In this document: positions 9,546 through 64,000 of the stretch, in pieces
How positions within the stretch are numbered: position 1 is the first letter of the stretch
How the letters are laid out: every line of letters starts with the position of its first letter
Origin: Liolophura sinensis
Lineage: Eukaryota > Mollusca > Polyplacophora > Chitonida > Chitonidae
Length of the DNA stretch: 64,000 bases
Assembly (NCBI RefSeq): GCF_032854445.1
Contig: NC_088305.1
Span: 29,412,628 to 29,476,627, forward strand
Direction of reading: 5' to 3'
The notes under the pieces: model-generated
Database searches by the model: none
Seen by the model: only the letters and a program-made list of their open reading frames with translations
Told to the model about the DNA's origin: nothing
Translations under genes and position numbers: made by a program

Positions 9546-19042
<9,497 letters not shown>

Positions 19043-24400: not shown

Positions 24401-27400
24401 CAGCCATCACTAAGGCGAAAAATTCTTGAGTGTTTCATTAAATAACAGTTCATAAATAAACAAACAAATTAGGTTATAATCCACTGTAGCTAGAATAATT
24501 TGGATAAGACTTGCTTTTACAATCAGTCTTCTGTTCTTCACATATCTCCACCAGGTGGCGCTTGGTGACCCGGCTAAAGCAAAACGTTATCCATTGCGGA
24601 GTGGAAAGGATGAGTTTCGTCAGTGTCTAGTAGAGAAATTCCCTGATGAAGTACCTGCCATTGATAAGTTCCTGGAAATGGTGAATGTAAGTAGAAACAG
24701 CCCTCTTTACACCGGACTAAAGCAAAACATTGAGTTACCTATCTGCTGTTTTTTTGTTTTTTTTTTTATGTTTTTTCACTTTTAGTTGATTTTTACAGAA
24801 ATGCCATGGCAGCACACTAAAGTTCGTCTTGCTGATTTTATCTTACAGAAATGCCATGGCAGCACTCTCATGTTCGTCTTACTGATTTTATCTTACAGAT
24901 ATGCCATGGCAGCACTCTCGTGTTCATCTTACTGATTTTATCTTACAGAAATGCCATGGCAGCACTCTCATATTCATCTTACTGATTTTATCTTACAGAA
25001 ATGCCATGGCAGCACTCTCATGTTCGTCTTACTGATTTTATTTTACAGAAATGCCATGGCAGAACTCTCATGTTCATCTTGCTGGTTTTATCTTACAGAA
25101 ATGCCATGGTAGCACTCTCATGTTCATCTTACTGATTTTATCATACAGAAATGTCATGGCGACACTCTCATATTCATCTTACTGATTTTATGTTACAGAA
25201 ATGCCATGGCAGCACTCTCATGTTCATCTTACTGGTTTTATCTTACAGAAATGCCATGGCAGCACTCTCATGTTCATCCTGCTGGTTTTATCTTACAGAA
25301 ATGCCATGGCAGCACTCTCATGTTCGTCTTACTGATTTTATCTTACAGATATGCCATGGCAGCACTCTCGTGTTCATCTTACTGATTTTATCTTACAGAA
25401 ATGCCATGGCAGCACTCTCATATTCATCTTACTGATTTTATCTTACAGAAATGCCATGGCAGCACTCTCATATTCATCTTACTGATTTTATGTTACAGAA
25501 ATGCCATGGCAGCACTCTCATGTTCATCTTACTGGTTTTATCTTACAGAAATGCCATGGCAGCACTCTCATGTTCATCCTGCTGGTTTTATCTTACAGAA
25601 ATGCCATGGCAGCACTCTCATGTTCGTCTTACTGGTTTTATCTTACAGAAATGCCATGGCAGCACTCTCATGTTCGTCTTACTGGTTTTATCTTACAGAA
25701 ATACCATGGCAGCACTCTCATGTTCATCTTACTGGTTTTATCTTACAGAAATGCCATGGCAGCACTCTCATATTCATCCTGCTGGTTTTATCTTACAGAA
25801 ATGCCATGGCAGCATGCAGATGTTTGTGTTATATGTTACAGAAGTACCATGGTTAAGGCAGCACACTAAAGTTCGTCTTACTGGTTTTATCTTACAGAAA
25901 TGCCATGGCAGCATGCAGATGTTTGTGTTATATGTTACAGAAGTACCATGGTTAAAGGCAGCACACTAAAGTTCGTCTTACTGATTTTAACTTACAGAAA
26001 TGCCATGGCTGCACTCTCGTGTTCGTCTTACTGGTTTTATCTTACAGACTTGCTATGGCAGCGCTCTCATGTTCGTCTTACTGGTTTTATCTTACAGACT
26101 TGCCATGGCAGCACTCTCATGTTCATCTTACTGGTTTTATCTTACAGAAATGCCATGGCAGCACTCTCATGTTCGTCTTACTGGTTTTATCTTACAGAAA
26201 TGCCATGGCAGCACTCTCATGTTCGTCTTACTGATTTTATCTTACAGAAATGCCATGGCAGCACTCTCATGTTCGTCTTACTGGTTTTATCTTACAGACT
26301 TGCCATGGCAGCACTCTCATGTTCGTCCTTACTGGTTTTATCTTTCAGACTTGCCATGGCAGCACTCTCATGTTCGTCTTACTGGTTTTATCTTACAGAC
26401 TTGCCATGGCAGCACTCTCGTGTTCATCTTACTGATTTTATCTTACAGAAATGCAATGGTAGCACTCTCATGTTCGTCTTGCTGATTTTATCATACAGAA
26501 ATGCCATGGCAGAACTCTCATGTTCATCTTACTGAGTTTATTTTACAGAAATGCAATGGTAGCACTCTCATGTTCATCTTACTGGTTTTATCTTACAGAA
26601 ATGCCATGGCAGCACTGTCGTGTTCATCTTACTAATTTTTTTTTACAGAAATGCAATGGTAGCACTCTCATGTTCATCTTACTTATTTTATCATACAGAA
26701 ATGCCATGGCGACACTCTCATGTTCGTCTTACTGGTTTTATCTTACAGAAATGCCATGGCAGCACTCTCATGTTCGTCTCACTGGTTTTATCTTACAGAA
26801 ATGCCATGGCAGCACTCTCATATTCATCTTACTGATTTTATCTTACAGAAATGCCATGGCAGCACTCTCATGTTCGTCTTACTGGTTTTATCATACAGAA
26901 ATGCCATGGCAGCACTCTCATGTTCATCCTGCTGGTTTTATCTTACAGAAATGCCATGGCAGCACTCTCATATTCATCTTACTGATTTTATCTTACAGAA
27001 ATGCCATGGCAGCACTCTCATGTTCGTCTCACTGGTTTAGCATACAGAAATGCCATGGCAGCACTCTCATGTTCATCTTACTGGTTTTATCTTACAGACT
27101 TGCCATGGCAGCACTCTCATGTTCGTCTTACTGGTTTTATCTTACAGAAATGCCATGGCAGCACTCTCATGTTCGTCTTACTGATTTTATCTTACAGAAA
27201 TGCCATGGCAGCACTCTCATATTCATCTTACTGATTTTATCATACAGAAATGCCATGGCAGCACTCTCATGTTCATCTTACTGATTTTATGTTACAGAAA
27301 TGCCATGGCAGCACTCTCATGTTCGTCTTACTGATTTTATCATACAGAAATGCCATGGCAGCACTCTCATATTCATCTTTCTGGTTTTATCATACAGACT

Positions 27401-30400
27401 TGCCATGGCAGCACTCTCATATTCATCTTACTGATTTTATCTTACAGACTTGCCATGGCAGCACTCTCATGTTCATCTTACTGATTTTATGTTACAGAAA
27501 TGCCATGGCAGCACTCTCATGTTCGTCTTACTGATTTTATCTTACAGAAATGCCATGGCAGCACTCTCATATTCATCTTATTGATTTTATCATACAGAAA
27601 TGCCATGGCAGCGCTCTCATGTTCGTCTTATTGATTTTATCATACAGAAATGCCATGGCAGCACTCTCATGTTCATCTTACTGATTTTATCTTACAGAAA
27701 TGCCATGGCAGCACTCTCATATTCATCTTTTTGATTTTATCATACAGAAATGCCATGGCAGCACTCATGTTCATCTTACTGATTTTATCTTACAGAAATG
27801 CCATGGCAGCACTCTCATGTTTGTCTTACTGATTTTATCTTACAGAAATGCCATGGCAGCACTCTCATGTTCATCTTACTGATTTTATCTTTCAGAAATG
27901 CCATGGGAGCACTCTCATGTTCGTCTCACTGATTTTATCATACAGAAATGTCATGGCAGCACTCTCATGTTCATCTTACTGATTTTATCTTACAGAAATG
28001 CAATGGTAGCGCTCTCATGTTCATCTTACTGATTTTATCATACAGAAATGTCATGGCGACACTCTCATATTCGTCTTACTGATTTTATCTTACAGAAATG
28101 CCATGGCAGCACTCTCATGTTCGTCTTACTTATTTTATTTTACAGAAATGCCATGGCAGAACTCTCATGTTCATCTTACTGATTTTATCTTACAGAAATG
28201 CCATGGTAGCACTCTCATGTTCATCTTACTGATTTTATCTTACAGAAATGCCATGGGAGCACTCTCATGTTCGTCTTACTGATTTTATCTTACAGAAATG
28301 CAATGGTAGCACTCTCATGTTCATCTTACTGATTTTATCATACAGAAATGTCATGGCGACACTCTCATATTCGTCTTACTGATTTTATCTTACAGAAATG
28401 CCATGGCAGCACTCTCATGTTCGTCTTACTGATTTTATCTTACAGAAATGCCATGGCAGCACTCTCATGTTCATCTTACTGATTTTATCATACAGAAATG
28501 TCATGGCGACACTCTCATATTCGTCTTACTGATTTTATTTTACAGAAATGCCATGGCAGAACTCTCATGTTCATCTTACCGATTTTATCTTACAGAAATG
28601 CCATGGTAGCACTCTCATGTTCATCTTACTGATTTTATCTTACAGAAATGCCATGGTAGCACTCTCATGTTCATCTTACTGATTTTATCATACAGAAATG
28701 TTATGGCGACACTCTCATATTCGTCTTACTGATTTTATTTTACAGAAATGCCATGGCAGAATTCTCATGTTCATCTTACTGATTTTATCTTACAGAAATG
28801 CCATGGTAGCACTCTCATGTTCATCTTACTGATTTTATCTTACAGAAATGCCATGGCAGAACTCTCATGTTCGTCTCACTGATTTTATCATACAGAAATG
28901 CCATGGCAGCACTCTCATGTTCATCTTACTGATTTTATCTTACAGAAATGCCATGGGAGCACTCTCATGTTCGTCTCACTGATTTTATCTTACAGAAATG
29001 CCATGGCAGCACTCTCATATTCATCCTGCTGGTTTTATCTTACAGAAATGCCATGGTAGCACTCTCATGTTCATCTTACCGATTTTATCTTACAGAAATG
29101 CCATGGCAGCACACTGATGTTCGTCTTACTGAAGAGCCTACCTGTATTTCTGTCCAGACTGTTGGTCAAGACTGGCCTAGTCCATCTTGTGTCCAACTAC
29201 TTCAAATACAGCACCATGTGTCTTCAGTCCACGCTGGATGAACTGACAACCAACCCTGACCTAAAGGCCGTGCTGTCTTACAGTTTTGGGGATTATGGCA
29301 TGTTGATTTCTTTTTTATAGCATATTGTTTATTTCTCCCATGATGGGTAACTAGCCAACGGTTATTTCCATGGCCTGATCAGTCGACGGTTATTTCCATG
29401 GCCTGAACAGCCGACGGTTATTTCCATGGCCTGAACAGTCGACGGTTATTTCCATGGCCTGAACCTTCGACAGTTATTTCCATGGCCTGAAAGGTTGACA
29501 GTTCTTTTCCATGGGCTGAAAGGTTGACGCTTATTTCCATGGCCTAATACCTTCACATTTTTTATCATGGCTTCAATGTTGGTTGGGATTGCTGTGCCTG
29601 AAAAAGTTGATGCCGTCAGTAACTCTCAAAAGATAGGCAAGTGACATTAGAGTGACCTTTGCAATTATGTGTGTTTAAGAAAAATATAAACGGGAAAGGG
29701 AATTACAAAAAAATTTTCAGTTTTATTTAATATTATAGGTATTGTATACGATTTGCAAAAATTCTAATTGTCATAATAGTCTTTTAAAACAACATTTACT
29801 ACTATTATATTTCTTTACTTATTTAGTTATTTATTTATTTATATTATATTTATATTATATTATATTACAGGTGTTGTCCCAAAGAAAGCAGGCTTTGCCA
29901 TGCAGGCGTCACTGGTCAATCACTATGTGCGAGGCAGCTACTATCCACGAGGAGGTGCCAGCGAAATCGCATATCACATGATCCCCATCATCGAACGAAG
30001 CGGAGGACGAGTTTTGGTGCGGGCGCCGGTGACCAAAATCCTGTGTACAGGGAAAGGCAGGGCAGGAGGTGTGTGGTAGTTCCCTTTATATTAAAACCAT
30101 ATACAGGGTAAATGACGTAAAATTTCTCCCAAACAGTGCATTTTTTGGGGCAGATAAAATATTACCTTTGAAACCAAAACTCACATTTTCTCAGTAGGAC
30201 ATCATTCTGCTTCCCAAACAAGCATGAAACCACCTGTGAGATCAATAAATCTCAATAAATCAGGCAAAATGAGCAACTTGGTCATGGACAAAATTTTAGG
30301 TCATTTATGGTACATGTAGGTCATCATATATAACAGTGATAACAGTCACACTGTTTCACATGATAATAGTTTAGGCAACAACAGTTTCATTTTGTGTTTT

Positions 30401-33400
30401 TACAGACAAGCTGACTGTACAAAATCCCAGTATGGAATAAAAATAAAACTCATTGTGGTTTGTGAACTCAAGAAAATGAAAAAGTCTTGTGCCTTGCGCT
30501 AAATTGTACTGCTCAAAAACATGTACATGTATATAAATGTCAGTTAAATATTCCATATCATTATAGTGTACATACAATAAACTCTAATGTCTGTCTCTTT
30601 TGTCTTAAGCATTCGTAGTATTATCGTATCATTGTTTCAATATCAAGGAAACACAATGAAAACGGAATTGTTGTTTTCATTTTTTTGCCTGAGACCTGCA
30701 AATTTTGTCTTTTCTCCTTGTCAAGGTGTGCGTGTTCGTAAAGGACAGAATGAGTATGACTTCTATGCTCCGTACATTATATCAGCCACAGGGGTCTGCT
30801 CTACCGTGACTAAACTCCTGCCCAAAGAGGTCGCCTCCAAGTCAGGTGGGTCTCACTGTCACAATTTGGGTCTACTCTCCAGTGACTAGACTCCTGCCTA
30901 AAGAGGTCTCCTCCAAGTCAGGTAAGTCTCACTGTCACAGTTTGGGTCTTCTCTCCAGTGACTGGACTCCTGCCTAAAGAGGCCTCCTCCAAGTCAGGTA
31001 AGTCTCACTGTCACAGTTTGGGTCTACTCTGCCATGACTAAACTCCTGCCTAAAGAGGTCTCCTCCATGTCAGGTAAGCCTCAATGTCACAGTTTGGGTC
31101 TAATCTACCATGATTAAACTCCTGTCTAAAGAGGTCTCCACCAAGTCAGGTAAGTCTCACTGTCACAGTTTGGGGTCTACTCTACCGTGACTAAACTCCT
31201 GCCTAAAGAGGTCTCCTCCAAGTCAGGTAAGTCTCACTGTCACAGTCTGGGGTCTACTCTACCATGACTAAACTCCTGCCTAAAGAGGTCTCCTCCAAGT
31301 CAGGTAAGTCTCACGGTCACAATTTGAGATCTACTCTACCGTGACTAAACTCCTGCCCAAAGAGGTCTCCTCCAAACCAGGTAAGTCTCACTGTCACAGT
31401 TTGGGATCTACTCTACCGTGACTAAACTCCTGCCCAAAGAGGTCTCCTCCATACTCTAAATCTCTTTCTATTTCTGGATGTAACATCAAATGTGCCTCAC
31501 CTCTTAAAATTCCTACATGAAATAACTGTATACACAACTGTATTTTCTTAGGTGCATGCTTTTGCTGATTTGAGAATTCATTAGTACCTGTATTACATTG
31601 TTGTTGTTTCAGTGTTGTCCACCCTCCTCACCAAAGTGGAGCCTGGAGCTGCCTGTATGTCTATGTTTATTGGGCTTAGGGGCAGCCCCGAAGAGCTCAA
31701 ATTACCCAAGTTCAACACCTGGGCATTCACACAGTGAGTAAATGGCAGAGTTGTCACTGTTTCACTTTTGAGTGACTGGCTGTGGTATTGCAGTGTCTGT
31801 TTCACTCTTGAGTGACTTGCTGTGGTATTGCAGTGCCTGTTTCACTTTTGAGTGACTGGCTGTGGTGTTGCAGTGTCTGTTTCACCCTTGAGTGACTGGC
31901 TGTGGTGTTGCAGTGTCTGTTTCACTTTTGTGTGACTGGCTGTGGTATTGCAGTGCCTGTTTCACTTTTGAGTGACTTGCTGCGGTATTGCAGTGCCTGT
32001 TTCACTTTTGAGTGACTTGCTGCGGTATTGCAGTGTCTGTTTCACTCTTGAGTGACTGGCTGCGGTATTGCAGTGTCTGTTTCACTCTTGAGTGACTGGC
32101 TGTGGTGTTGCAGTGTCTGTTTCACTTTTGAGTGACTTGCTGTGGTATTGCAGTGTCTGTTTCACTCTTGAGTGACTTGCTGTGGTGTTGCAGTGTCTGT
32201 TTCACTCTTGAGTGACTTGCTGTGGTGTTGCAGTTTCTGTTTCACTTTTGAGTGACTTGCTGCGGTATTGCAGTGCCTGTTTGACTTTTGAGTGACTTGC
32301 TTCGGTATTGCAGTGTCTGTTTCACTCTTGAGTGACTGGCTGTGGTGTTGCAGTGTCTGTTTCACTTTTGAGTGACTTGCTGTGGTATTGCCGTGTCAAT
32401 ATACAATAGTTGATGAAAGGGGCATGGAACCCTTGCTCTCTGTCCATGTGTCTGGTCAGGCCTACTGATTAAGAGGACCAGTTTTACTACAAGTTACTTA
32501 CATGACCAATCATTGTGTAGAAAACACTTAAAATTCAAGGAGAGGAATATTGTAAATTCTGCAGATTTGATGTATATGAATTGCTTGTACTTTAATCAGA
32601 AATTTGTGTTGGTGTCCAGGTTGACCCTTTGTCAATATTTGCTTTAATCTGCTGGCCAAATCATTGACAAACTCACTGTCAAGTAACATCCAGGATTTAT
32701 TTATTTATTTGATTCGCATTTTTTATGCCATACTCAAGAATATTTCACTTATACGATGATGTCCAGCATTATGGTGGGAGGAAACCGAGCAGAGCCTAGG
32801 GGAAACCCACGACCATCCGCAGGTTGCTGTCAGACTTTCCCATGTACGGGCGTGGAAGAAGCCAGCGTGAGCTGTACTTAAAGTCACAGAGACCACATTG
32901 GTGGGAGGCTCCTGTTTTGATCAGGAAAGGAGAATATTGTAAATTCAACAGATTTGATGCATATAAATGTAAATTTCTTTTACCTCAGAGTTTGATTAAA
33001 ATGATGTTGAGGGCATTTTATTTAGTTTTAGATGTACTTGTGGGTTTAGTCTCACTCTTTGTACAAACATCACCAAATATCCAGGGAGCGAATGTTGGAA
33101 AGTCGTGAGATTTTACCCATATCTGTTTCTTTATCATGTAAATTCAATCTTCATTTAGTTCTTTTACTCTGATCTACAGGGCCAGATATTCTCAAAGTTG
33201 GGCAAAAGCTTTATCTAGCAAGTAAAAAAAAATATCACAAATTAAGCAGGTTATATGCATATAGTTCTAAGTAAAACGATACACATTAGCTCGATCATTC
33301 TCATTAAAGGTAGGTTGTAGGGAGTGAGATTGATCGCACCCAGTGAAAGGTAAGGCCAGCTACGATGTAAAATGTCTCGCTACACAGGCACTTCATTTAG

Positions 33401-41023: not shown

Positions 41024-41240
41024 TATTTATTTACTTGATTGGTGTTTTTAACCCAATTCAAAAGTATTTCACTTATATGACCGCAGCCAGCATTATGGTG
41101 GGAGAAAATCTGTGACCATCCGCAGGTTACTGATGTATGACCGCAGAGGAAGCCACCATGAGCTGGACTTGAACTCACAGCCATCGCATTGGTGAGAGGC
41201 TCATTAGCACGCCAGCCACCAGGCCATGGAGGGCCCATCT
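41024..41240 (-). mobile_element. SINE copy (main family)
   Basis: TATTTATTTACTTGATTGG, CCAGCATTATGGTGGGAGAA, TGTGACCATCCGCAGGTTAC, GAGCTGGACTTGAACTCACA, CATTGGTGAGAGGCTC, and head GCACGCCAGCCACCAGGCCA. Confidence 0.88.
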
Positions 41241-58600: not shown

Positions 58601-61600
58601 TATTTAGAAAGTGCTGACTAAACAGTAAAATGAACAACAAAAAGCTATCTTTATAATTTGAACAGTGCGTCTAAGTGCGGCTAAGGTCTACTTAGGAGAT
58701 GAACGCGGTTTGGGCAGAGATGGTATGCTGCTGTCAGACATAATTTGTGATACCGTCATTGAATATTACATGGCTTGTACATCAGCTAATTTCAAGTCTG
58801 TGGTGGTCCATAAATGTTACAGACCTGTTCTACAAGGACCTGTGAAATGGCTCCTCGGCAGTACGTAACTAAATCATAGTAAACGATCTCAAAATGATGT
58901 CTTATGCAGCAGTTCTGTGTTATCATGTCACCTCATGGAATGAATGGGTAAAGGCTACGTCAAAGCTTAGGCTGTGCAATCTGATAGCAACATTTTGATT
59001 GGATAAAATTCTCAAGATGTCTGCACCAAGTCGCACCAGCCATTTGTGCAGTATTGTCATTTTGTTCTACATGTTATTTGGTAAAAATAATGATAAAGTA
59101 TGATACTTTTTTGGAAAACTGCAAAATCCTGCTTTCCAATGAAATATATATTAGCCAGGTGCCGTCTCATCCTTTAACCCATTGGCTAAGGCTTGCCTTC
59201 AACAGCAATAAAAACAAATCATCAAAATCGAACATTTATTTGATTGGCGCTTTAACACTGATTGGTGCTTTAAATCTACAGAGCCTGAAGCATCCCCTTA
59301 AGTCAGACACATGAGAAACCAATTCATTAAAAGCTGTTGCTGAACCAGTTAACAAAATTTGTATGTGTGTGTCTTGAATGAATAAACAGAATTATCTCCG
59401 CAGCAAAACAACTTCAAATAAGGTAACACTGCAAACATCTACTCACCAAATCTGTACCAAAGTATGTGTAAACCTGAAAATAAAAAAATAACACTCATGT
59501 GTCATCAGAAGTAATCTCTCTGTGTGAGAAGCTGGCATCTCACACATGTAAGTCTGTACAGACTATTGCTACAATATTAATGCTGATTATTTGTTTACAA
59601 TAAATTAAGTTTTGTGTCAGATCTGATCACTTTTTCATTTTATTATTTATTTCATAAGTGTTTAATGATTTATTTATTTGATTTGTGTTTTAGGCCATAC
59701 TGAAGAATATTTCACTTATACAATGGCGGCCAGAATTATGGTGGGGGGAAAAGTGGGCTGAGCCCTGGGGAAACCCACGATCATCAGCAGGTTGCTGGCA
59801 GACCTTGCCACGTACAGCCAGAGAGGACATGGACTTCCGCTCACGGTGATCGCATTGGAGATTCCTGGGTCAACGCGCTGCACTGGCATGCTAACCCCAT
59901 AGGCCATGAAGGATCCCTAATATGATGTGAGTTTTGTGTCAGATCTGATCAGGAAAGTGAGGAAAATGTTACTGAAATTTATTATTTATCTGGTAAGTGT
60001 TTAATGTGATACATAAGTACCATGGTATAACATAATACCTAGCTATCTGGTCACCATGAAAGTTTCGTACACATTATGCTACCTGCGCTTTATGACACTG
60101 ACACCTGGTTCTAATTACCTTCAATACACACACGACAAGGCAAACTGACAGAATACTCACAGTGTAGAGGACAAGGTAAACTGACAGAATACCCACAGTG
60201 TAGAGGACAAGGCAAAATGACAGAATACTCACGGTGTAGAGGACAAGGCAAACTGGCAGAATACTCACAGTGCATAGGACAAGGCAAACTGACAGAATAC
60301 TCACTGTGAAGAGGACAAGGCAAACTGACAGAATACTCACTGTGTAGAGGACAAGGCAAACTGACAGAATACTCACAGTGTAGAGGACAAGGCAAACTGA
60401 CAGAATACTCACTGTGTAGAGGACAAGGCAAACTGACAGAATACTCACGGTGTATAGGACAAGGCAAACTGACAGAATACTCACTGTGTAGAGGACAAGG
60501 CAAACTGACAGTATACTCATGGTGTAGAGGACAAGGCAAACTGACAGAATACTCACTGTGTAGAGGACAAGGCAACCTGACAGAATACTCACTGTGTAGA
60601 GGACAAGGCAAACTGACAGAATACTGACAGTGTAGAGGACAAGGCAAACTGACAGAATACTCACTGTGTAGAGGACAAGGCAAACTGACAGAATACTCAC
60701 GGTGTATAGGACAAGGCAAACTGACAGAATACTCACTGTGTAGAGGACAAGGCAAACTGACAGTATACTCACGGTGTAGAGGACAAGGCAAACTGACAGA
60801 ATACTCACTGTGTAGAGGACAAGGCAAACTGACAGTATACTCACGGTGTAGAGGACAAGGCAAACTGACAGAATACTCACTGTGTAGAGGACAAGGCAAA
60901 CTGACAGTATACTCACGGTGTAGAGGACAAGGCAAACTGACAGAATACTCACTGTGTAGAGGACAAGGCAAACTGACAGAATACTCACTGTGTAGAGGAC
61001 AAGGCAAACTGACAGAATACTCACTGTGTAGAGGACAAGGCAAACTGACAGAATACTCACGGTGTAGAGGACAAGGCAAACTGACAGAATACTCACAGTG
61101 TAGAGGACAAGGCAAAATGACAGAATACTCACTGTGTAGAGGACAAGGCAAACTGACAGAATACTCACTGTGTAGAGGACAAGGCAAACTGACAGAATAC
61201 TCACAGTGTAGAGGACAAGGTAAAATGACAGAATACTCAGTGTGTAGAGGACAAGGCAAAATGACAGAATACTCACAGTGTAGAGGACAAGGCAAACTGA
61301 CAGAATACTCACAGTGTAGAGGACAAGGCAAACTGACAGAATACTCACGGTGTAGAGGACAAGGCAAACTGACAGAATACTCACTGTGTAAAGGACAAGG
61401 CAAACTGACAGAATACTCACTGTGTAGAGGACAAGGCAAACTGACAGAATACTCACGGTGTAGAGGACAAGGTAAAATGACAGAATACTCACTGTGTAGA
61501 GGACAAGGCAAAATGACAGAATACTCACGGTGTAGAGGACAAGGCAAACTGACAGAATACTCACAGTGTAGAGGACAAGGCAAACTGACAGAATACTCAC

Positions 61601-64000
61601 GGTGTAGAGGACAAGGCAAACTGACAGAATACTCACAGTGTAGAGGACAAGGCAAAATGACAGAATACTCACGGTGTAGAGGACAAGGCAAACTGACAGA
61701 ATACTCACTGTGTATAGGACAAGGCAAACTGACAGAATACTCACGGTGTATAGGACAAGGCAAACTGACAGAATACTCACTGTGTAGAGGACAAGGCAAA
61801 CTGACAGTATACTCATGGTGTAGAGGACAAGGCAAACTGACAGAATACTCACTGTGTAGAGGACAAGGCAAACTGACAGAATACTCACTGTGTAGAGGAC
61901 AAGGCAAACTGACAGAATACTCATGGTGTAGAGGACAAGGCAAACTGACAGAATACTCACTGTGTAGAGGACAAGGCAAACTGACAGAATACTCACGGTG
62001 TATAGGACAAGGCAAACTGACAGAATACTCACTGTGTAGAGGACAAGGCAAACTGACAGTATACTCACGGTGTAGAGGACAAGGCAAACTGACAGAATAC
62101 TCACTGTGTAGAGGACAAGGCAAACTGACAGAATACTCACAGTGTAGAGGACAAGGCAAACTGACAGAATACTCACTGTGTAGAGGACAAGGCAAACTGA
62201 CAGAATACTCACGGTGTAGAGGACAAGGCAAACTGACAGAATACTCACAGTGTAGAGGACAAGGCAAAATGACAGAATACTCACTGTGTAGAGGACAAGG
62301 CAAACTGACAGCATACTCACTGTGTAGAGGACAAGGCAAACTGACAGAATACTCACAGTGTAGAGGACAAGGTAAAATGACAGAATGCTCAGTGTGTAGA
62401 GGACAAGGCAAAATGACAGAATACTCACAGTGTAGAGGACAAGGCAAACTGACAGAATACTCACAGTGTAGAGGACAAGGCAAACTGACAGAATACTCAC
62501 GGTGTAGAGGACAAGGCAAACTGACAGAATACTCACTGTGTAAAGGACAAGGCAAACTGACAGAATACTCACTGTGTAGAGGACAAGGCAAACTGACAGA
62601 ATACTCACGGTGTAGAGGACAAGGTAAAATGACAGAATACTCACTGTGTAGAGGACAAGGCAAAATGACAGAATACTCGCGGTGTAGAGGACAAGGCAAA
62701 CTGACAGAATACTCACAGTGTAGAGGACAAGGCAAACTGACAGAATACTCACGGTGTAGAGGACAAGGCAAACTGACAGAATACTCACAGTGTAGAGGAC
62801 AAGGCAAAATGACAGAATACTCACGGTGTAGAGGACAAGGCAAACTGACAGAATACTCACAGTGTAGAGGACAAGGCAAACTGACAGAATACTCACTGTG
62901 TAGAGGACAAGGCAAACTGACAGAATACTCACTGTGTATAGGACAAGGCAAACTGACAGAATACTCACTGTGTAGAGGACAACGCAAACTGACAGAATAC
63001 TCAGTGTGTAGAGGACAAGGCAAAATGACAGAATACTCACTGTCTAGAGGGAAAGGCAAACTGACAGAATACTCACAGTGTAGAGGACAAGGCAAACTGA
63101 CAGAATACTCACTGTGTAGAGGACAAGGCAAACTGACAGAATACTCACTGTGTAGAGGACAAGGCAAACTGACAGAATACTCATGGTGTAGAGGACAAGG
63201 CAAACTGACAGAATACTCACGGTGTAGAGGACAAGGCAAACTGACAGAATACTCACTGTGTAGAGGACAAGGCAAACTGACAGAATACTCACAGTGTAGA
63301 GGACAAGGCAAACTGACAGAATACTCACGGTGTAGAGGACAAGGCAAACTGACAGAATACTCACAGTGTAGAGGACAAGGCAAAATGACAGAATACTCAC
63401 GGTGTATAGGACAAGGCAAACTGACAGAATACTCACAGTGTAGAGGACAAGGCAAACTGACAGAATACTCACTGTGTAGAGGACAAGGCAAACTGACAGA
63501 ATACTCACTGTGTAGAGGACAAGGCAAACTGACAGAATACTCACGGTGTAGAGGACAAGGCAAACTGACAGAATACTCAGTGTGTAGAGGACAAGGCAAA
63601 ATGACAGAATACTCACTGTCTAGAGGAAAGGCAAACTGACAGAATACTCACAGTGTAGAGGACAAGGCAAACTGACAGAATACTCACTGTGTAGAGGACA
63701 AGGCAAACTGACAGAATACTCACTGTGTAGAGGACAAGGCAAACTGACAGAATACTCATGGTGTAGAGGACAAGGCAAACTGACAGAATACTCACTGTGT
63801 AGAGGACAAGGCAAACTGACAGAATACTCACTGTGTAGAGGACAAGGCAAAATGACAGAATACTCACTGTCTAGAGGACAAGGCAAACTGACAGAATACT
63901 CACTGTGTAGAGATAGTAGTCAAACAGCTGGGACATACACAAGATAACATCAAAGGCAATTGGCTTCAGGTAGGTCATCATCTGCATGTATTTACCTGGG
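49608..64000 (-). CDS. VPS50: VPS50/syndetin homologue, C-terminal exons (EARP complex)
   Basis: VPS50 (syndetin, CCDC132) is the subunit specific to the EARP tethering complex, acting in endosome recycling and dense-core vesicle trafficking. The gene runs off the right edge. Exons, in reading order: 64000-63904 (partial), 59473-59447, 57036-56926, 55915-55815, 55351-55255, 54216-54058, 53482-53361, 52088-51990, 50650-50560, 49721-49608 (stop TGA at 49,608-49,610). Visible family blocks: [155 protein letters not shown], and the end [20 protein letters not shown]. About 336 residues of a protein usually near 960. All phases agree if exon 57036-56926 uses a weak GTGACG donor. Confidence 0.94.
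49760..49930 (-). mobile_element. SINE copy, tail half (main family)
   Basis: In the last VPS50 intron. TATTTACTTGATTGGTGTTT, TACGCCGTACTCAAGAATAT, CAGCATTATGATGGGAGGAA, GACCATCCGCAGGTTGCTGA, GGGACCTTCCCA; head missing. The remaining intron up to 50,559 has no notable structure. Confidence 0.88.
50870..51345. repeat. 37-40 bp minisatellite in VPS50 intron
   Basis: About twelve copies: TTAACTTTTTACACCCAAAC, TAACTTCCACATGGAGGC. No exon sequence in the unit. Intron between exons 52088-51990 and 50650-50560. Confidence 0.95.
51545..51712 (+). mobile_element. SINE copy, tail half (main family), left arm of inverted pair
   Basis: CTCTCCGGCCACACATGTGA, GGTCTGCCAGCAG, GGTTTCCTCCCACCATAATG, CTGGCCACTGTCGTACAAGT, GGCATAAAACACCAATCAAA. 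Lies antisense to VPS50 transcription. Confidence 0.9.
51750..51912 (-). mobile_element. SINE copy, tail half (main family), right arm of inverted pair
   Basis: TTTATATGATTGGTGTTTTA, CGCCGTACTTAAGAATATTT, GTGGCCAGCATTATGGAGGG, CATCCGCAGGTTGCAG, CCCATGTACGGCCC. Opposite orientation to the copy about 40 bp to its left. Confidence 0.9.
52100..52335. repeat. about 24-bp minisatellite beside a VPS50 acceptor
   Basis: About nine copies of a unit like GGTATGGTGTTGAAAATAGG. It begins some 15-20 bp upstream (minus strand) of the acceptor for exon 52088-51990. No exon sequence in the unit. Confidence 0.93.
52670..53155. repeat. about 20-bp minisatellite in VPS50 intron
   Basis: More than twenty diverged copies of GGTAAGTATGCAACTCCTC or GCTAAGTATGCAATTCCTC. 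Many units contain GGTAAGTAT, a strong donor consensus, but on the plus strand, antisense to VPS50. Confidence 0.92.
55360..55705. repeat. about 20-bp minisatellite abutting a VPS50 acceptor
   Basis: About sixteen copies alternating GTAGACATTTCAACATAAAA and TGTGGTAGATATGTCAACAC. Its left end runs into the acceptor of exon 55351-55255, where ACACATTCAACAAATGTGG resembles the unit. Confidence 0.92.
56040..56255 (-). mobile_element. SINE copy, nearly full length (main family)
   Basis: Best view of the tRNA-like head in this family: on the minus strand GTAGCACAGGCTGTTAGCG resembles an A box and GTGAGTTCAAGCCCAGC a B box. Body CCGGGCAGAGCCCAG and CAGCATTATGGTGTGAGGAA; tail GTTTATTTATTTAACTGGTG. 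Confidence 0.9.
56420..56890. repeat. 17-21 bp minisatellite near a VPS50 donor
   Basis: More than twenty diverged copies of a unit like ACATTCACTCAGTGAGATAT. Starts about 20-35 bp downstream (minus strand) of the donor region of exon 57036-56926. No exon sequence seen. Confidence 0.9.
56926..57036 (-). CDS. VPS50: VPS50 exon with two competing donors
   Basis: Starts after TTGTTGCAG with CCGGAGCTGAATTC and encodes [20 protein letters not shown], then [17 protein letters not shown]. Ending at 56,926 (ACA before GTGACG) keeps the frame into [10 protein letters not shown] of the next exon. The stronger match CAG|GTCAGT would end the exon at 56,912 and break the frame by two. Confidence 0.75.
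57180..57590 (-). mobile_element. SINE with internal tandem expansion
   Basis: Main-family words appear two or three times: AAAATATTTCACTCATACGA, AGCCAGGCAGAGCCC and variants, TTGGCAGACTTTC, then GCTTGAACTCACAGCGACCA and head ACGTTAACCTCTCAGC. The middle block is duplicated. Confidence 0.75.
57720..58485. mobile_element. dispersed 0.77-kb repeat, copy 2 (unknown class)
   Basis: Counterpart of 16,975-17,760, same orientation, in a VPS50 intron about 40 kb away. Conserved blocks as listed there; the CRE-like palindrome is changed to TGATGTCA. Short minus-strand open frames are not conserved as any known protein. The following 58,490-59,440 is intron with no further structure beyond a SINE tail scrap near 59,230-59,275. 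Confidence 0.8.
59447..59473 (-). CDS. VPS50: VPS50 27-nt microexon
   Basis: Between TTTTCAG and GTGAGTAG lies GTTTACACATACTTTGG plus TACAGATTTG, encoding VYTYFGTDL. This fits directly after ...DYYLYT of the exon ending 63,904 and before PELNSL at 57,036, where the family has a YTFFG-type sequence. Phase 0 on both sides. Flanking introns are about 4.4 and 2.4 kb. Confidence 0.88.
59660..59925 (-). mobile_element. SINE copy, nearly full length (main family)
   Basis: ATTTATTTATTTGATTTGTG, ACTGAAGAATATTTCACTTA, GGCGGCCAGAATTATGGTGG, CAGCAGGTTGCTGGCAGACC, and head TGGCATGCTAACCCCATAGG reading in reverse. Confidence 0.88.
60125..63905 (-). repeat. 36-bp array of duplicated VPS50 exon end and splice donor
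   Basis: About 105 copies of a 36-bp unit. On the minus strand each reads CTCTACACAGTGAGTATTCT then GTCAGTTTGCCTTGTC. The first unit is the authentic exon end (TATCTCTACACA at 63,904) and its donor GTGAGT, so most units reproduce that junction. One position varies (ACA, ACC or ACT before GTGAGT); a few have ATGAGT, losing the donor. Because 36 is divisible by three and the unit lacks stops in several frames, open frames of 840-1162 codons arise on both strands; I do not call them genes. Confidence 0.97.

Follow-up and report, generated by a model that had tools for sequence, protein, structure and literature searches.

The window, a stretch of 64,000 nucleotides from the chiton Liolophura sinensis (Polyplacophora, Chitonidae), carries two modelled genes, RETSAT on the forward strand and ALDH9A1 on the opposite strand. 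The RETSAT model comprises 12 exons with intron phases that join cleanly into a single open frame of 628 amino acids, and a protein search with this translation returned the entry 'all-trans-retinol 13,14-reductase-like [Liolophura sinensis]' (628 aa) with 100% identity and coverage. The nine-exon ALDH9A1 model matches a Liolophura sinensis protein with 100% identity over 518 amino acids. The initial annotation had assigned the forward-strand gene to RETSAT, numbered the exon considered here as the fifth and placed its acceptor at position 29,095, and the identity of the 12-exon reading frame to the NCBI protein bears out all three assignments. Use of the 29,095 acceptor is thus implied by the annotated protein, although the NCBI entry may itself be a pure prediction. 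In an alignment with 12 relatives, chosen out of the 120 listed, the exon 4/5 junction is found without insertion.

Most of RETSAT intron 4 (positions 24687..29095, forward strand; 4,409 nt) is a tandem array. The segment 24687..24798 comprises the donor GTAAGT, an extended T-rich tract and the acceptor of the first copy, probably the ancestral one, and just 112 nt of intron precede this first array acceptor; the array accounts for 97.5% of the intron. Tandem Repeats Finder delimits the array at 24793..29132 with a period of 50, 86.9 copies, 89% matches and a score of 6732, and the self-match at a lag of 50 amounts to 0.866, versus 0.270 ± 0.007 for 200 mononucleotide shuffles. Anchoring of the units on ATGG resolves 87 copies, the final one of which opens exon 5 itself at 29,096, with 86 decoy acceptors upstream of that position. 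The array is therefore real, and the earlier figure of about 85 tandem copies before exon 5 was close. Exon 5 (29096..29297; 202 nt) begins with the last repeat copy as its first 37 nt and ends at the donor G|GCATGT. Unique sequence flanks the array on both sides.

Each 50-bp unit joins 13 nt derived from the end of the intron to 37 nt derived from the start of exon 5, and the exon 5 bases agree with the array consensus at 34 of the 37 exon-derived positions. The trinucleotide CAG stands immediately 5' of the exon start in all 87 copies (TTACAG in 68, ATACAG in 17 and TTTCAG in 2), as expected from the proposal that a complete 3' splice site is repeated in every unit. The further expectation that upstream acceptors fall at multiples of 50 is slightly off: the unit length is exactly 50 in 79 of 86 cases, the remainder measuring 43, 43, 48, 49, 51, 56 and 57 bp. 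The 79 units of 50 bp have a mean identity to the consensus of 0.948 and a mean pairwise identity of 0.913, and comprise 56 distinct types with 42 identical pairs. Higher-order structure is confined to two short repeated blocks of identical units, one of 3 units at distance 9 and one of 2 units at distance 6. Two compound variants at 25799..25997 (units of 43 + 56 and 43 + 57 bp) retain the ACACTAAAG form of unit 1. Comparison of the cluster edges reveals that unit 1 and exon 5 have A18 and G28 in common, both differing from the consensus; the ACACT form of unit 1 is also present in two inner compound units, and G28 occurs inside the array in 32 of the 79 units. The first copy ends GTTGATTTTTACAG and consensus-type inner copies read CTGATTTTATCTTACAG; the corresponding bases of exon 5 are TACTGAAGAGCC. 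A TGA is common to both breakpoints, one preceding unit 1 in the intron and one standing at the exonic side of the junction, which suggests that the founding duplication took place across this 3-base match; the sequence of events is our inference.

A branch-like TACTGA(T) had been ascribed to every unit. TACTGA does occur in the final 20 nt upstream of the cut in 44 of the 87 copies, and TACTGG in 18, but the adenosine of TACTGA is separated from the cut by only 13 nt, a short distance. Other yUnAy matches are found 17, 22 and 28 nt away, and at least one such branch-like match occurs 15–40 nt before the cut in 84/87 copies. The copies remain credible as 3' splice sites thanks to branch-point-like and pyrimidine-rich stretches that the exon sequence contains by chance. 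Splice scores were computed with textbook frequencies rather than with a fitted model; the acceptor score covers 13 tract positions, and the donor score omits positions +1 and +2, so that GC carries no penalty. By this crude score the array acceptors average 4.9, a value reached by 2.8% of the AGs on the forward strand of the window, and the real copy, at 5.08, is the best of RETSAT's 11 acceptors and is outscored by 60 of the 87 array acceptors. The first copy is distinguished by the T fraction in the 60 nt before its cut, which at 0.67 is the highest of the 87 (the others reach at most 0.42). Its 13-nt acceptor score of 4.25 is lower than that of the real copy, and it is preceded by another AG ending 11 nt upstream.

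Directly after the exon that adjoins the array, RETSAT intron 5 is apparently of the GC-AG type (ATG|GCATGT, positions 29297–29299). Apart from the GC, the exon 5 donor scores 3.73, the median of RETSAT's 11 donors. A GC donor is expected to weaken exon definition. Selection preserving the decoy acceptors was also considered, as CAG is invariant, but 19 of the 50 columns are invariant overall and the case is not convincing; invariant columns make up 8/13 of the intron-derived and 11/37 of the exon-derived positions (Fisher P 0.054).

The consequences of decoy use were followed by joining, in silico, exons 1–4, the array from each of the 86 upstream acceptors and exons 5–12. The frame is kept in 28 of the 86 products, and all 86 carry a premature stop, which in 49 decoys comes after 28 residues. 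Of all 87 acceptors, the one at 29,095 alone yields the full reading frame, in agreement with the view that the last copy is needed for the normal protein. The longest open run after exon 4 extends for 261 residues and stems from an out-of-frame decoy. Against 170 GT dinucleotides, the 50-bp array contains no GTRAGT, and units pairing an acceptor with a consensus donor, as tandem alternative exons would have, are consequently missing. Likewise no AGGT is present in the array, and hence no AG directly followed by GT, the arrangement that marks a recursive splicing site. Given both absences, the array would be expected to produce no separate exons and to serve no recursive steps.

A second array lies at a 5' splice site of the same gene. 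The last 55 nt of RETSAT exon 7 (30726..30845, forward strand) form the first copy of a 76-bp array, found by Tandem Repeats Finder at 30791..31451 of the same strand with 8.6 copies, whose unit contains the end of exon 7 together with its 5' splice site. Eight donors spaced 76–77 bp apart are present, none missing, as located with a pattern that demands GT. The real donor, at 30,846, is GTGGGT, while six of the seven decoys read GTAAGT and one GTAAGC. With the same textbook frequencies the real donor scores 5.69 versus 7.3–8.8 for the decoys; it is nevertheless second best of the gene's 11 donors, and so is weak only relative to its decoys. Use of any of the seven decoy donors brings a stop at codon 401, 400 residues into the protein. 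AGGT occurs 16 times in this array. An acceptor-like CACAG is seen within about 20 nt after the donor in 6 of the 8 full units of 30791..31451, and judged by its sequence a unit could in principle serve as a small cassette exon joined from the donor of an earlier unit. The third array belongs to ALDH9A1 (9579..9815, reverse strand): it consists of 3 copies of a 79-bp unit made up of the last 36 nt of the coding sequence with the stop codon and of 3' flank. For the intron 4, exon 7 and ALDH9A1 arrays alike, the copy that counts is the one attached to the body of the exon.

Tandem repeats make up 31% of the window, in 40 arrays that were merged by hand from 86 Tandem Repeats Finder rows. No enrichment of arrays at exon edges was detected: an end inside an exon is seen in 3 of the 9 genic arrays of at least 90 bp (null mean 2.1, P 0.36) and in 4 of the 15 genic arrays of any size (null mean 3.1, P 0.38). 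The fourth of these, at 29293..29334, comprises 2.0 copies, shares 5 nt with exon 5 and falls outside the set of nine. When 11 of the 40 arrays were compared with the sequence around exon ends, none besides the three already described proved to be derived from an exon edge. Those at 31757 and 13530 were rejected as candidates, their high scores arising only since the 60-nt flank already takes in part of the array; of the other six compared, none exceeded the highest shuffled score and one (10971) equalled it. As array ends in exons match random placement, exon-edge arrays look like the outcome of random minisatellite birth, and look as though they persist since splicing can hide them. Elsewhere in the window, an array at 60134–63912 contains 105 copies of a unit whose length, 36 bp, is a multiple of 3; three reading frames there hold open stretches of 989, 1003 and 1178 amino acids. 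About 11 copies of a 22–23 bp unit with a donor-like GGTGAGTAA occupy 2500–2738, outside both gene models, and the segments 32700–32910 and 41030–41230 resemble what we take to be a dispersed repeat shared among molluscs.

Repeats of this kind have been described in amphioxus as mirages, minisatellite-like repeats, in coding genes, that take in an exon-intron boundary together with its splice signal (PMC3087553, PMC3902484). These papers place them in Adh3, TnC and the globins BflGb6 and BflGb9, and liken repeats of PGBD5 to them; they sit at 3' or 5' splice sites, and many copies, though not all, keep the splice signals. Length polymorphism, somatic instability and an escape of cluster-edge units from homogenisation are counted among the traits of mirages. 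The units measure 10–72 bp in Adh3 and 150–160 bp in BflGb6, where two haplotypes have 6 and 3 of them, and PGBD5 has 2–7 units, according to the same papers (PMC3087553, PMC3902484). The RETSAT intron 4 array shares with these, as there portrayed, a boundary-spanning minisatellite in a coding gene with repeated splice signals: its repeats are tandem and minisatellite-like (50 bp x 86.9) its unit spans the exon-intron boundary, and splice signals are retained, as CAG in 87/87 copies and as eight donors in the exon 7 array. The full reading frame comes solely from the copy adjoining the real exon, the one that the annotated protein matches, and normal mRNA would probably use it. The intron 4 array differs from the amphioxus cases so described in occurring in a mollusc and in having 87 copies that make up 97.5% of an intron. 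The array is real and fits the description of a mirage, as an extreme case, its novelty being one of scale and phylum.

Other systems resemble it in part. CeRep25B and other intronic minisatellites have been linked to alternative splicing in C. elegans, and they are likewise intronic minisatellites of spliced genes, but in the portion of that report consulted they bear regulatory motifs without copies of an exon boundary (PMC4039745). Earthworm metallothionein genes have minisatellites in intron 1, comparable as large intronic minisatellites of a lophotrochozoan gene, whereas the available part of the account mentions no exon boundary within the repeat (PMC12783039). The Rogers model, as cited in PMC3087553, derives intron gain from duplicated AG/GT proto-splice sites, and tandem duplication creates new splice signals in both settings; in contrast to that model as summarized there, the 50-bp array is without AGGT and enlarges an existing intron, while the exon 7 array, with its AGGT, has the precondition. 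No mirage outside lancelets was found in the literature searched, which included only a minority of subscription papers, and a word search in the available text of two chiton genome papers (PMC12005716, PMC11068029) returned nothing on such arrays.

It is quite probable, in our judgement, that intron 4 holds a giant mirage, a minisatellite born of a short duplication across the intron 4 / exon 5 boundary, and that the last copy supplies the acceptor of the productive mRNA. The duplication would have taken in about 13 nt from the end of the intron and 37 nt from the start of the exon, probably across the TGA at both breakpoints, after which slippage or unequal exchange would have enlarged the intron from roughly 112 nt to 4,409 nt. 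The invariant CAG, the pairwise identity of 0.913 and the 56 types among 79 units are as expected of an evolving array, and the two repeated blocks of identical units speak for the same reading, as do the two further exon-end arrays in the window, one of them at a 5' splice site, and the 31% share of tandem repeats, with array ends placed in exons at the rate of chance. Transcripts would contain the 86 decoy acceptors, and exon definition, the pairing across the short real exon, would favour the acceptor nearest to the real exon and its donor; decoy products, with their premature stops, would be degraded. A choice of the last copy by exon definition has three points against it: exon 5 has a GC donor, 60/87 copies surpass the real one in crude score, and the intron end at the first copy is T-rich. 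Intron definition might favour that first copy, with its T-richest tract and 112-nt intron, yet it has the lower score and the additional AG 11 nt upstream.

If decoys win in some transcripts, output is lost to premature stops, and it is conceivable, though unlikely, that this happens often, the early-stop mRNAs being degraded and array length setting RETSAT output as a length-dependent dial of unproductive splicing. The 86 acceptors of good score, the first copy with its T-richest tract and short intron, the premature stop in every decoy product and the GC donor of exon 5 are all compatible with frequent decoy use. A strong loss of product should, however, be selected against, and the array, long as it is, has existed for enough time to accumulate 56 types among 79 units; moreover, splicing reportedly proceeds undisturbed at amphioxus mirages, as RT-PCR of the globins and data on Adh3 are said to suggest (PMC3087553, PMC3902484). 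We regard as distinctly unlikely a rheostat in which competition of the 86 decoys for the splicing machinery lowers the productive share of RETSAT mRNA as copy number rises, fast changes of length between individuals and cells making output heritable but unstable.

It is very unlikely that the array is an artefact of assembly. Long tandem arrays are readily mis-sized and a single assembly was examined, so that the copy number may be inexact; however, the units vary, with the pairwise identity given above and 42 identical pairs among 79, and the array continues into unique sequence on both sides within a contig of 32.8 Mb. Less probable still is the proposal of the initial annotation that some upstream acceptors would yield translated isoforms with 50-residue periods. 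The consensus does follow the proposed three-unit reading cycle, stopping in its middle unit, a TACTGG there opens the cycle, and one out-of-frame decoy stays open for 261 residues past exon 4. Set against this, the 28 frame-keeping decoys include none free of a premature stop, and none of all 86 stays open through to the normal end; the units, devoid of GTRAGT, have no consensus donor of their own; and a 273-residue open stretch of the array, the only one queried, gave 1,443 word-sharing candidates in a protein search but no match at E <= 0.001. Translated isoforms from array acceptors are unlikely; those made by extension of exon 5 are refuted for this allele, for which the idea fails. Removal of intron 4 by recursive or stepwise splicing, to which the regularly spaced series of acceptors would lend itself, is scarcely credible, as it needs AG followed by GT and the array has no AGGT.

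The choice of splice sites is usually studied with few competitors, and RETSAT intron 4 presents 87 similar acceptors that differ mainly in distance. With the apparent old end of the intron intact on one side and the real exon on the other, the array constitutes a natural test of such choice, and the same gene offers the mirror case at exon 7, where seven decoy donors are nearer to consensus than the true one. Since the bases after position 37 distinguish decoy from true junctions, AGAGCC following in exon 5 and TTTTATC in consensus decoys, chiton RNA could weigh exon definition against intron definition and put a figure on the difference. With this array the mirage phenomenon reaches beyond lancelets into a mollusc, and arrays of the kind would seem to be leftovers of random minisatellite birth striking the edge of an exon.
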